Below, one piece after another: positions 40,189-45,158 of a stretch of 64,000 nucleotides of DNA. Origin of the DNA: Pseudomonas laurentiana (GTDB lineage: Bacteria; Pseudomonadota; Gammaproteobacteria; Pseudomonadales; Pseudomonadaceae). A program made the position numbers and the translations under genes. The stretch covers positions 207,739 through 271,738 of the forward strand of contig NZ_BMQU01000004.1 of NCBI RefSeq assembly GCF_014648275.1. The letters run 5' to 3'. How positions within the stretch are numbered: position 1 is the first letter of the stretch; each line of letters starts with the position of its first letter. The notes under the pieces are model-generated. The model made no database searches and was not told where the DNA came from. It worked only from the letters and a program-made list of their open reading frames with translations.

Positions 40189-40233
40189 GGCAAGGCTTGC
40201 TCCTGCACATTGAGCGGTGGGAGCCAGCCTTGC
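40189..40233. repeat. REP-like inverted repeat after the acyl-CoA cluster
   Basis: GGCAAGGCTTGCTCCTGC (40189-40206) is largely complementary to GGTGGGAGCCAGCCTTGCC (40216-40233 region). This resembles the short palindromic REP elements scattered between genes in P. putida and P. fluorescens genomes. Confidence 0.55.
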
Positions 40234-40374
40234 CAAGGTACAACGACGCCCCCAGACCTACTACCAAATAACGAGCCGCCCGCTGCCAACGGCTCATTCG
40301 CGGCCATCGACCTGCTGGCTAAGATCGAACCACTGCCTGCCCCTCGGCAGGCCTCGATCAGCAGAGGTTTCCGC

Positions 40375-41895
<1,521 letters not shown>

Positions 41896-41958: not shown

Positions 41959-42152
41959 GTGCTCCACTCATTGCTCGCGTGAGGGGGCTGTGCTGCTCAG
42001 GGCGTCAGGTGTGCGCGACGTCTCTGAGTGGCTTGTTGAGGATATGGCACCAAAGCGCTGAGCCATTTGCTCCCAAAGTAGGAGGCGTGGCTTGCAGGGC
42101 AGGTGTTTAATGAAATCACCGCAATCCTGTGGTGCTAGAAGAGGATCGAGTT

Positions 42153-42224
42153 ATGTGGAAAAAGCCTGCGTTCACTGATCTGCGTATTGGTTTTGAAGTG
42201 ACGATGTACTTCGCCAACCGTTGA
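42153..42224 (+). CDS. pqqA: Orphan PqqA, precursor peptide for pyrroloquinoline quinone
   Basis: The 23-codon frame from the ATG at 42153 to the TGA at 42224 begins [11 protein letters not shown] and contains the hallmark EVTMY. In PqqA the Glu and Tyr of this motif (Glu15 and Tyr19 here) are cross-linked and become the PQQ skeleton. AGAGGATCGAG precedes the start at a suitable distance. The other pqq genes are absent from the window, so this copy stands alone between the aldehyde dehydrogenase and ercA. A perfect hairpin follows 11 bp later. It could boost PQQ supply during growth on alcohols, when PQQ-dependent dehydrogenases are needed. Whether it is a second copy cannot be seen here. Confidence 0.88.
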
Positions 42225-42235
42225 TCCTGCTCCCG

Positions 42236-42259
42236 CCGGCCACTGTGTACAGTGGCCGG
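42236..42259 (+). terminator. Strong hairpin downstream of pqqA
   Basis: CCGGCCACTGT and ACAGTGGCCGG form a perfect 11-bp palindromic stem with a tiny loop. No T-run follows, so it may stabilise the short pqqA mRNA or reduce readthrough into ercA, not act as a classical terminator. Confidence 0.55.
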
Positions 42260-42343
42260 TGCCACTTACGCTTGACGGTCTGATTGCAATCCCGGTCCGA
42301 TGCTTTAGGCTGGCGCTATCTTAAAAAAACAAGAAGGCGTTGC

Positions 42344-43507
42344 ATGAGCCCGAACCTGAGCCAGTTGCGTAAATTCGTCTCCCCGGAAATCATCTTTGGC
42401 GCGGGCTGTCGGCACCATGTGGCCAACTATGCCAAGACCTTTGGTGCACGCAAGGTGTTGCTGGTCAGCGACCCAGGGGTAATTGTTGCGGGGTGGGTGG
42501 CCGATATCGAAGCCAGCCTGCGCGAGCAGGGCATCGAGTACTGCCTGTACAGTGACGTGTCGCCCAATCCTCGGGTCGAGGAGGTCATGGCTGGCGCTGA
42601 GCGTTACCGCAGTGAGCAGTGCGATGTGATTGTCGCCGTTGGAGGTGGTAGCCCGATGGACTGTGCCAAGGGCATTGGCATCGTGGTAGCGCATGGTCGG
42701 CATATTCTGGAGTTTGAAGGGGTCGATACCATTCGTGTGCCGAGCCCGCCGCTGATCCTGATCCCGACCACTGCCGGAACCTCGGCGGATGTCTCGCAAT
42801 TCGTGATCATTTCCAACCAGCAGGAACGGATGAAGTTCTCCATCGTCAGCAAGGCAGTGGTGCCGGATGTGTCGTTGATCGACCCGGAAACCACCCTGAG
42901 CATGGACCCGTTCCTTTCCGCCTGCACCGGTATCGATGCGTTGGTGCATGCCATCGAGGCCTTTGTTTCTACTGGCCACGGGCCGCTGACCGATCCCCAC
43001 GCGCTGGAAGCAATGCGCCTGATCAACGGCCATCTGGTGCAGATGATCGCCAACCCTGGTGATATTGCCCTGCGCGAGAAAATCATGTTGGGCAGCATGC
43101 AGGCCGGGTTGGCGTTTTCCAACGCGATCCTGGGGGCGGTGCACGCCATGTCCCATAGCCTGGGCGGCTTCCTCGATCTGCCTCATGGCTTGTGCAATGC
43201 GGTGTTGGTTGAGCACGTCGTGGCCTTCAACTACAGCGCCGCACCCGAGCGTTTCAAGGTGATCGCCGAGACGCTGGGTATTGATTGCCGTGGCTTGAAT
43301 CACAACCAGATTCGCCAGCGCCTGGTGGAGCACCTGATTGCCCTCAAACACGCAGTAGGCTTCCATGAAACCCTTGGTCTGCATGGTGTTGGTCTGTCGG
43401 ATATCCCGTTCCTGTCGCAGCATGCCATGGATGATCCATGCATTCTGACCAACCCGCGTGCATCGAGCCTGCGTGACGTCGAGGTGGTGTATGGCGAGGC
43501 CCTCTGA
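42344..43507 (+). CDS. ercA: Iron-containing alcohol dehydrogenase, ErcA-like
   Basis: The 387-residue product belongs to the iron-dependent group III alcohol dehydrogenases. It has the NAD-binding segment VGGGSPMDCAKGIG and likely metal ligands Asp198 and His202 in TGIDALVHAIEAF. Two further histidines lie in AVHAMSHSLGGFLDLPHGLCN. In P. aeruginosa and P. putida, ErcA-type proteins next to an ErcS' kinase take part in regulation of the ethanol-oxidation system, possibly by generating a signal metabolite. The start at 42344 has AAGAAGG at 6 nt. Its 3' end overlaps the kinase start by 17 nt, which ties the two proteins together translationally. Confidence 0.88.
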   Translation: MSPNLSQLRKFVSPEIIFGAGCRHHVANYAKTFGARKVLLVSDPGVIVAGWVADIEASLREQGIEYCLYSDVSPNPRVEEVMAGAERYRSEQCDVIVAVGGGSPMDCAKGIGIVVAHGRHILEFEGVDTIRVPSPPLILIPTTAGTSADVSQFVIISNQQERMKFSIVSKAVVPDVSLIDPETTLSMDPFLSACTGIDALVHAIEAFVSTGHGPLTDPHALEAMRLINGHLVQMIANPGDIALREKIMLGSMQAGLAFSNAILGAVHAMSHSLGGFLDLPHGLCNAVLVEHVVAFNYSAAPERFKVIAETLGIDCRGLNHNQIRQRLVEHLIALKHAVGFHETLGLHGVGLSDIPFLSQHAMDDPCILTNPRASSLRDVEVVYGEAL

Positions 43508-45158
43508 TCCCGGGGCGGATGCCCTTGCCGGGCTTCTAGGGCTGAGCAACCATACGGTTCGCAAGAGCCATTACCCGGAATTGGCCGTGCGGCTGGAGGA
43601 GCTGGAGGCTGAACGCAACCGTTACAAGTGGCTGTTCGAGCACGCGGTACACGGGATTTTTCAAGCCAGCCTGGACGATGGCCTGCGTGCCGCGAACCCG
43701 GCGTTGGCACGTATGCTTGGCTACACCGACCCTCAGGCCGTGTTGTTTTCCCGTAGGGACCTGGGCGGTCATTTGTTTGTCGGTGGGCCGACGGAACTGT
43801 TGCAGATTACCCAGGTGTTGCAGCGCGACGGCGCCTTGCTTGGCTATGAGACACAGTTGCGCCGCCGTGATGGCAGCAGTATCGACGTGGTGATGAACCT
43901 CTTGCGCCGGCCTGATGAAGAAGGCCTGGTGGAAGGCTTCGTTGCCGACATCACTGAGCGCAAGCTGGCCCAGGAGCGCTTGCAGCAGCTCAACGATGAA
44001 CTGGAGCAGCGCGTCACCGAGCGTACCAACGAGTTGATTGACGCGCGTGATGCGGCCCAGGCCGCCAACCGGAGCAAGGACAAGTATCTGGCTGCAGCCA
44101 GCCATGACCTGTTGCAACCATTGAATGCGGCGCGGCTGCTGATCTCTACCCTGCGTGAGCGAGTGCTACCGGCCACCGAACAGGTGTTGGTCGAGCGCGC
44201 TCATCAGGCACTGGAAGGGGCGGAGGACCTGCTCACGGATCTGCTGGACATCTCTCGGCTGGACCAGGCTGCGATCAAACCAGACCTTGATCTGTACAGC
44301 CTGGATGAGGTGTTGGCACCATTGGCCTCGGAGTTCCAGCCGGTTGCTGAAGCCGCAGGGCTGAGCTTGCGGGTGCGCAGCGGTCAGCGGGTGATTCATA
44401 CCGATTTGCGGTTGCTGACGCGGATCCTGCGCAACTTCCTCAGCAATGCTTGTCGATACACCGAGCACGGACGTGTGTTGTTGGGCGCCAGACGATGTGG
44501 TCATTACCTGCGGCTTGAGGTGTGGGACAACGGTAGGGGAATTGCCGCCGATCGCCTTGAGTCGATTTTTCTGGAGTTCAATCAGCTCGACGTGGGGCGT
44601 GCGGCTGATCGCAAGGGGGTTGGCCTGGGGTTGGCGATTGTTGAACGTATTGCCCGCATACTCGACTGTCAGGTGCGTGTGCGTTCCTGGCCGGGGCGCG
44701 GCTCGGTGTTCAGCATTGATGTCCCGCTCACCCGCGATTTGCCACGCCCGCCGGTGGCCGCGGTGTTGCCGCAGCCAAGTATCGGCAATCCGTTGCCAGG
44801 ACGGCGTTTGCTGGTACTGGACAATGAACTGAGCATCCTCCAGAGCATGGCTTCTTTGCTCGGCCAGTGGGGGTGTGAGGTGCTGATCGCCACAGACCGT
44901 GAGAGCGCACTGGAGGTGCTGCAGGGGCGTGAGCCGGAGTTGATACTGGCGGACTACCACCTTGACCACGGCGTAACGGGCTGTGATGTGGTCATGGACC
45001 TGCGCAAGCATTTTGGACAGCCGATTGCAGCGGTGATGATTACGGCTGATCGTAGTGATCAGAGCCGTCTGGCAATGCAGCGTCTCGGGGCACCTCTGCT
45101 GAGTAAACCAGTGAAACCCGGTAAATTGCGGGCCGTGTTGAGCCAGCTGTTGGGGTAG
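43491..45158 (+). CDS. Hybrid sensor histidine kinase, ErcS'-like, with PAS and receiver domains
   Basis: The 555-residue cytoplasmic kinase has no membrane segment. The order is a short N-terminal coil, a PAS domain (about 45-155, ending in FVADITERK) and a coiled coil. HisKA follows with the phosphorylated His205 (AASHDLLQPLN), then HATPase with the N-box RNFLSNACRY and the GLGLAI G2 box. The C-terminal receiver has Asp488 (LILADYHL) and Lys539. It overlaps ercA by 17 nt. No stand-alone response regulator lies nearby, so it may feed a regulator elsewhere or act as a phosphorelay partner in the Erb/Erc network that controls alcohol oxidation. Confidence 0.87.
   Translation: MARPSDPGADALAGLLGLSNHTVRKSHYPELAVRLEELEAERNRYKWLFEHAVHGIFQASLDDGLRAANPALARMLGYTDPQAVLFSRRDLGGHLFVGGPTELLQITQVLQRDGALLGYETQLRRRDGSSIDVVMNLLRRPDEEGLVEGFVADITERKLAQERLQQLNDELEQRVTERTNELIDARDAAQAANRSKDKYLAAASHDLLQPLNAARLLISTLRERVLPATEQVLVERAHQALEGAEDLLTDLLDISRLDQAAIKPDLDLYSLDEVLAPLASEFQPVAEAAGLSLRVRSGQRVIHTDLRLLTRILRNFLSNACRYTEHGRVLLGARRCGHYLRLEVWDNGRGIAADRLESIFLEFNQLDVGRAADRKGVGLGLAIVERIARILDCQVRVRSWPGRGSVFSIDVPLTRDLPRPPVAAVLPQPSIGNPLPGRRLLVLDNELSILQSMASLLGQWGCEVLIATDRESALEVLQGREPELILADYHLDHGVTGCDVVMDLRKHFGQPIAAVMITADRSDQSRLAMQRLGAPLLSKPVKPGKLRAVLSQLLG

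Follow-up and report, generated by a model that had tools for sequence, protein, structure and literature searches.

The peptide PqqA is the substrate of PQQ synthesis and is consumed at one peptide per PQQ, and PqqB-E are the catalysts of the pathway. Why, then, should a pqqA gene stand without them in a locus for alcohol oxidation? The question is raised by a stretch of 64,000 nt from Pseudomonas laurentiana (GCF_014648275.1, contig NZ_BMQU01000004.1, positions 207,739–271,738 of the forward strand), referred to as the window in this text. A first-pass annotation had described a 23-codon PqqA precursor with its cross-link motif and a ribosome site, lying without pqqB-E among genes of alcohol oxidation, and had read it as an orphan gene that might raise the supply of PQQ on demand. 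Our analysis confirmed the observation and partly supported the interpretation.

A solo pqqA gene between exaC and ercA

The gene lies on the plus strand at 42153–42224 (ATG at 42153, stop codon TGA at 42222–42224) and is one of 137 in-cluster copies considered below. A chance reading frame was ruled out by the PqqA family scores of the 23-residue product, which matches TIGR02107 (NCBIfam) with 49.1 bits against a cut-off of 20 (E 3.3e-13) and Pfam PqqA (PF08042) with 44.4 bits against a cut-off of 21.1. The cross-link residues Glu15 and Tyr19 are present in the spacing E-x-x-x-Y. The ribosome-binding site AGAAGAGGA (42137–42145) ends 7 nt before the ATG; most other leaders have AAGAGGA at the aligned position. 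It is preceded by a leader hairpin, CACCGCAATCCTGTGGTG (42117–42134, folding at -9.0 kcal/mol), by a -10-like element placed by alignment, GTGTTTAATG (42103–42112; the commonest form in the genus is GTGCATTAATG), and by an upstream promoter box, CAAAGTAGGAGG (42074–42085), which starts 79 nt before the ATG and has 3 mismatches to the genus consensus CAAAGTAGCATT. A second hairpin with a 12-bp stem (42234–42261, -24.3 kcal/mol, without a T-run) follows the stop codon.

The flanking genes are transcribed in the same direction. The upstream gene (40210–41895 as the longest ORF; the family match begins near 40384) encodes the acetaldehyde dehydrogenase ExaC (NF050026, 946.7 bits, cut-off 900), and downstream we found ercA for an iron-ADH-like regulatory protein (42344–43507; NF041833, 612.1 bits, cut-off 550) and an ErcS-like hybrid histidine kinase of the NahK/ErcS family (43458–45158 as the longest ORF, although the true start may be later; NF041832, 418.8 bits, cut-off 400). 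With exaC, ercA and ercS all present together, the window contains an exa/ped alcohol-oxidation locus. It does not contain a pqq operon in the sense of pqqA followed by pqqBCDE: a tblastn search with the genome's own PqqB-E proteins gave no match between exaC and ercA, and this interval holds pqqA only. A PQQ alcohol dehydrogenase and PedF do not adjoin exaC-ercA-ercS here and are located on another contig (C2). At 42278–42317, ercA seems to be preceded by a conserved element of its own (GGTCTGATTGCAATC ... GATGCTTTAGGCTGGCGCT), which recurs in many of the solo loci inspected, so pqqA probably forms one unit and ercA another. The only Rfam matches at gathering thresholds in the window were three consecutive tRNA genes (1748–2076).

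Maturation enzymes elsewhere in the genome

As the first-pass annotation had proposed, the whole assembly (5.2 Mb in 223 contigs) was searched for pqqABCDE and for other pqqA copies. Two PqqA matches were found at E ≤ 1, namely the solo gene and a main copy on contig C17, where pqqF lies before pqqA, and pqqB, pqqC, pqqD and pqqE lie after it. These genes are followed by what we take to be a PqqG-like peptidase, a label given from its position, the NCBIfam match to Dpp5 being weak. The maturation enzymes PqqB-E for the solo peptide are thus present in the genome, on C17, and pqqE is single-copy. The solo and the main peptide differ at two residues, 3 and 7. Two quinoprotein alcohol dehydrogenases score above the family cut-off, one each on C2 and C15. 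The C2 gene is accompanied by genes for PedF, a SoxYZ-like, a SoxH-like and a CXXCW protein, NosP and NahK, and by one for a response regulator with likeness to ErdR and NarL that stays below their cut-offs. This set is a ped cluster, and it is separate from the window.

In-cluster pqq operons across Pseudomonas

Using a sample of 299 Pseudomonas genomes, drawn evenly, we found ErcA in 154 and PqqA in 273. In 149 of the ErcA genomes we read as much as 9 kb of the sequence preceding ercA, giving 150 loci together with the window; four of the 154 ErcA genomes are not in this tally, and one of them (G180) was later found to be of the solo type. The reading revealed every degree of pqqB-E(G) content in exaC-ercA loci, from full to absent. 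Complete in-cluster operons had the composition ABCDE in 29 loci (28 with exaC) or ABCDEG in 26 (16 with exaC), partial ones were AD (10), AB (5), ACDE (2) or ABCE (10), and pqqA stood alone in 55, in 47 of them with exaC in the stretch; in the remaining 8 solo loci the sequence read did not include exaC, in 4 cases owing to a contig end. The solo gene had been called an orphan, and it is indeed alone in its locus; the term needs correction in that the gene is best explained as a remnant of an in-cluster pqqABCDE(G) operon and is not rare (55/150 ercA loci).

The AD loci (L182, L190, L201, L206, L207, L208, L210, L213, L229, L246) are of the KT2440 type, with pqqA before pqqD-II. A pqqABCE arrangement without detectable pqqD was seen in L146, L147, L153, L156, L191, L195, L196, L216, L227 and L243.

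Whatever the state of the enzyme genes, pqqA was kept between exaC and ercA, with an intact frame, in 118/118 loci that hold both flanking genes. None of the 137 in-cluster copies found departs from the frame or lacks Glu15 or Tyr19, so the conservation on which the first-pass annotation made its reading depend is borne out, with the qualification that the search expression itself demanded Glu and Tyr/Phe; every locus with exaC and ercA passed it. An ErcA search of GTDB genomes, which yielded the named loci, gave a similar picture: in the 80 best loci, out of at least 571 relatives, pqqA was located upstream of ercA in 77, the exceptions being L057, L067 (contig cut) and L074, and in the first 13 of these 80 loci (L012–L024) pqqA stood alone about 100–150 nt before ercA. 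One locus of Pseudomonas sp. PDM05 (L060:1610-9001) has about 7.4 kb between pqqA and ercA, and in L061, with the same peptide, the distance is 128 nt; the L060 gap looks like an insertion.

The association does not extend to every ercA. No pqqA was found in 11/150 loci, and a further 2/150 consisted of DEG with a contig end; 4 of these 13 pqqA-less loci (L193, L238, L136, L199) end at a contig edge, and nine were read over the 9 kb. In eight of these nine genomes exaC lies apart with no pqqA within 1.5 kb, and a single pqqA was found. In G142, ercA has no upstream pqqA, and exaC-pqqA-pqqB, with the promoter box kept, is located elsewhere. Six loci with ercA apart from exaC (L167, L221, L228, L249, L266, L267) show a CCAAAGTAGTAG site before ercA. 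A response regulator resembling AgmR/ErbR is divergently adjacent in L167, L228, L249 and L266, where the neighbours were read.

The long-kept linkage with ercA, irrespective of the enzyme genes, could also be read in another way, with PqqA or a PqqE-modified form of it signalling the status of the PQQ precursor to ErcA/ErcS, so that the gene would be a regulator and not only feedstock. Four solo loci (L125, L161, L165, L253) fit this idea, since pqqA precedes ercA there and exaC is not found within 9 kb. Against it, G142 has pqqA with exaC and not with ercA. Moreover, two of the commonest PqqA peptides were found in solo and operon copies alike, so that no residue marks the solo copies as a class, and the literature passages covered here held no precedent. 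We regard a signalling role as highly improbable.

Copy number of pqqA and pqqE

At least two pqqA genes were present in 121/154 genomes with ErcA versus 1/145 without. In all 55 solo genomes pqqA is present two or three times and pqqE once or twice, and the 27 genomes with partial operons (AD, AB, ACDE, ABCE) carry two pqqA each; taken together, 82/82 genomes whose in-cluster operon is solo or partial have at least two pqqA and at least one pqqE. A single pqqA was found in 21 of the 26 ABCDEG genomes, and in these the in-cluster operon is therefore the only one. It follows from these counts that, in this sample, the in-cluster operon is reduced only where another pqqA and a pqqE exist, with the enzyme set of the other genomes judged by pqqE alone, not by pqqB, pqqC or pqqD. 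Three genomes (G324 with L288, G314 with L289, and G347) have three pqqA and three pqqE each, and L288 and L289 represent one further pqq set with yet another upstream region.

Phylogeny and selection

On a tree of ercA (150 rows), the solo label requires 9 changes, of which well-supported branches force at least 6, and the distinction between solo and any larger form requires 7; the tree is a quick one with SH-aLRT support only, these counts carry no direction, and a locus moved by transfer could give the same picture as repeated loss. The window locus falls within a supported set of nine solo loci. Both the pattern of copy numbers and the flanks that the loci have in common lead us to infer loss as the direction of change.

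If a solo gene is what remains of a truncated operon, it might simply be a neutral leftover that is itself heading for loss. The disappearance of the enzyme genes and the degenerate promoter box of the window copy are in line with this, as are the eight genomes with exaC and ercA apart, which have one pqqA only. However, among the 55 solo copies we found a pN of 0.031, a pS of 0.435 and a pN/pS of 0.071 (plain pairwise proportions), close to the 0.067 of 55 copies in ABCDE(G) operons, and the frame is intact in all exaC-ercA loci. The ratio is somewhat favoured because the search expression fixed some residues, although no exaC-ercA locus was lost to the expression. Met1, Trp2, Glu15, Met18 and Phe20 have invariant codons among the solo copies, and many third positions vary. 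The solo genes are under purifying selection like operon pqqA, and for the solo family as a whole neutral persistence is unlikely, with very little probability in our view.

A promoter box and leader common to in-cluster copies

The in-cluster copies have in common a box with the consensus CAAAGTAGCATT (also named CAAAGTAG), followed by the -10-like GTGCATTAATG, a short hairpin and AAGAGGA. The AAAGTA portion occurs in all 137 upstream regions, and the box starts 78–86 nt before the ATG in 134 of them. At most two mismatches to the 12-mer were found in 136/137 in-cluster upstreams versus 3/685 shuffled sequences that preserve base make-up only. The one exception is the window copy, whose 3 mismatches all lie in the second half; as its box is the most deviant of the 137, this copy may be weakly or differently driven. 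The 4-pair leader stem is paired in 121–123 of 123 distinct leaders; its pairs are mostly invariant, with one G-C/C-G exchange common to nine sequences.

Within 75 nt after the stop codon, a hairpin reached our score in 118/137 in-cluster copies versus 54/411 shuffles, which again keep base make-up only. The score was reached by 50/55 solo copies and by 12/26 ABCDEG loci. In seven of the 50 scoring solo loci (L151, L204, L226, L242, L244, L245, L247) the best stem belongs to a different element close to ercA, and the 3' hairpin itself is thus absent in part of one clade.

AAAGTA was absent from all 17 pqqA upstreams read outside the cluster (the main copy of the P. laurentiana genome and 16 from 16 other genomes, with L288 and L289 belonging to a third pqq set). 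In the 80 named loci, the best from at least 571 relatives, near-exact boxes (AAAGTA, then at most one mismatch) stood before pqqA in 74/74 cases. We conclude that the solo unit represents the front portion of an in-cluster operon together with its promoter, and not a copy of the main gene. The idea that the main pqqA had been duplicated into the cluster was accordingly set aside, the upstream region matching in-cluster full operons and not the other copies read.

A further possibility is that the solo gene is a plain dosage or backup copy that gives a constant extra amount of PqqA without any special tie to alcohols, its adjacency to ercA being a matter of history. The solo and main peptides of the genome differ at two residues only, and every solo genome has both genes. 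A motif related to the box, CCCAAGTAGTA, occurs about 48 nt before the ATG in 9 of the 17 non-cluster upstreams (L285, L286, L287, L293–L298), so that the regulator of both pqqA copies is possibly a common one. Yet a plain backup needs neither the full box nor the leader, and both are kept across the in-cluster copies, unlike the other upstreams in sequence and in place. A backup role appears rather doubtful to us, though worth keeping in mind.

A wider regulon defined by the box was considered and dropped. At up to two mismatches the P. laurentiana genome contains 8 matches versus 14 in a reversed control, and the 7 matches of a strict 16-base pattern in 38 genomes all lie at in-cluster pqqA promoters; the window's own box does not match this pattern.

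A truncated operon as the probable source of extra precursor

A conserved pqqA under purifying selection, with the promoter of the in-cluster operons and its maturation enzymes elsewhere in the genome, is probably best explained as a truncated in-cluster pqq operon that became a stand-alone unit feeding extra PqqA to distant enzymes. The ancestral arrangement would have been a pqqABCDE(G) operon between exaC and ercA. With a second complete pqq operon elsewhere, the in-cluster enzyme genes would have been lost, partly or wholly, in several lineages, and pqqA would have been retained with its own promoter box, leader hairpin and ribosome site, and often a 3' hairpin. Such a unit could make extra PqqA from what may be a stable mRNA, and the enzymes encoded by the C17 operon would use this peptide in trans. 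As PqqA is consumed and PqqB-E are catalytic, a single set of enzymes is enough for two precursor genes. The solo unit would then add PqqA under the alcohol programme, with the supply of PQQ presumably rising alongside.

Several reports bear on this model. The pathway is outlined in a 2026 review (PMC12997753), according to which the ped genes and the pqq operon are repressed when yiaY (ercA) or its kinase is inactivated. In P. brassicacearum the operon pqqA reaches a log2 TPM of 12.77 versus 3.98–6.86 for the other operon genes shown (PMC6722718). The proposal that PqqA abundance can limit PQQ synthesis agrees with a methylotroph, Methylovorus MP688, for which PqqA availability was reported to be rate-determining (Ge 2015, as cited in PMC11317620). 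Other findings point the opposite way. Disruption of any pqq gene except pqqG is stated to prevent PQQ synthesis (PMC12997753, its reference 17; by context P. putida), which speaks against the model in that a second pqqA would not be sufficient there, unless the pqqA insertions were polar. The cold response of P. extremaustralis, in which exa genes rise and pqq genes do not (a second pqqA is not mentioned in the passages covered), also counts against it, as do the nine pqqA-less ercA loci, the deviant box of the window and the occurrence of CCCAAGTAGTA in 9/17 non-cluster upstreams.

Orphan pqqA genes as such are already known. Methylorubrum extorquens has the extra copies pqqA2/pqqA3, and Methylovorus MP688 and Hyphomicrobium denitrificans have five copies each (PMC11317620, PMC9851590); for M. 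extorquens, pqqA has been reported to be non-essential in studies that left the orphan copies uninvestigated (PMC11317620). Like the solo pqqA, these methylotroph genes, which differ in expression, lie away from the enzyme genes, but in the passages covered they are not placed in an exaC-ercA locus nor described as the end of an operon truncation series. Within Pseudomonas, a pqqA2 of P. putida LWPZF (PMC9346032), a second pqqA in Pseudomonas sp. SD17-1 (PMC10467086) and an extra pqqD and pqqA in P. asiatica RYYT.1b (PMC12243554) are, as here, paralogs besides a pqqFABCDE(G) set and possibly represent the same locus; in the parts of these papers covered they are mentioned in a sentence or table, without context, conservation or promoter. 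Five other papers contain nothing on a second pqqA in the passages covered (PMC9777792, PMC5851621, PMC3644233, PMC11520305, PMC7937890).

The in-cluster operon of P. aeruginosa lies between pedI/exaC and yiaY/ercA, the same flanks as in the window, as far as the review tells (PMC12997753). Compared with it, the window lacks pqqB-E and pqqG, and the enzymes would be supplied by the operon on contig C17. The solo unit has its promoter box and leader in common with the in-cluster operons sampled across the genus. Incomplete pqq operons in ped clusters are, per its legend, marked in a figure of the review, and the rows of its table for the KT2440 ped cluster give pedI, pqqD-II and yiaY and no pqqA (PMC12997753). 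KT2440, known here from this table, would have a partial in-cluster operon like our 10 AD loci, where pqqA precedes pqqD in 10/10; judged by these loci, a pqqA is to be expected ahead of its pqqD-II. KT2440 keeps pqqD-II, whereas the window has lost pqqD. The expectation that gene finders may miss so short a gene fits these table rows and fails for LWPZF and RYYT.1b, in which the extra pqqA is listed. In the literature covered, mostly open-access papers, there was no account of pqqA as the kept part, of the shared promoter or of pqqA alone as a repeated end state, and the genus-wide reduction pattern looks new.

If the model is true, it explains the genus-wide association of a second pqqA with ErcA, and the effect of deleting the main pqqA may be masked in such strains. 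There is perhaps an even chance that a more general rule lies behind it: in a duplicated pqq operon the catalytic genes would be dispensable and the gene for the consumed peptide would not, Pseudomonas would repeatedly have made an alcohol-tied precursor gene, and the peptide rather than the enzyme level would set the output of PQQ. The pattern points to a need of these bacteria for additional PQQ precursor during growth on alcohols. The natural series from ABCDEG down to A offers a test bed for the question of whether PqqA supply limits PQQ.

A near match to the pqqA box, CCCAAGTAGCATTCG, was also noticed in the ped cluster on C2 (L279:7738-7752, minus strand). It starts 76 nt ahead of the nosP ORF's ATG, which resembles the spacing of the pqqA box (79 in the window). 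Judged by this likeness, the regulator of nosP-nahK may be the same as that acting at the pqqA box.
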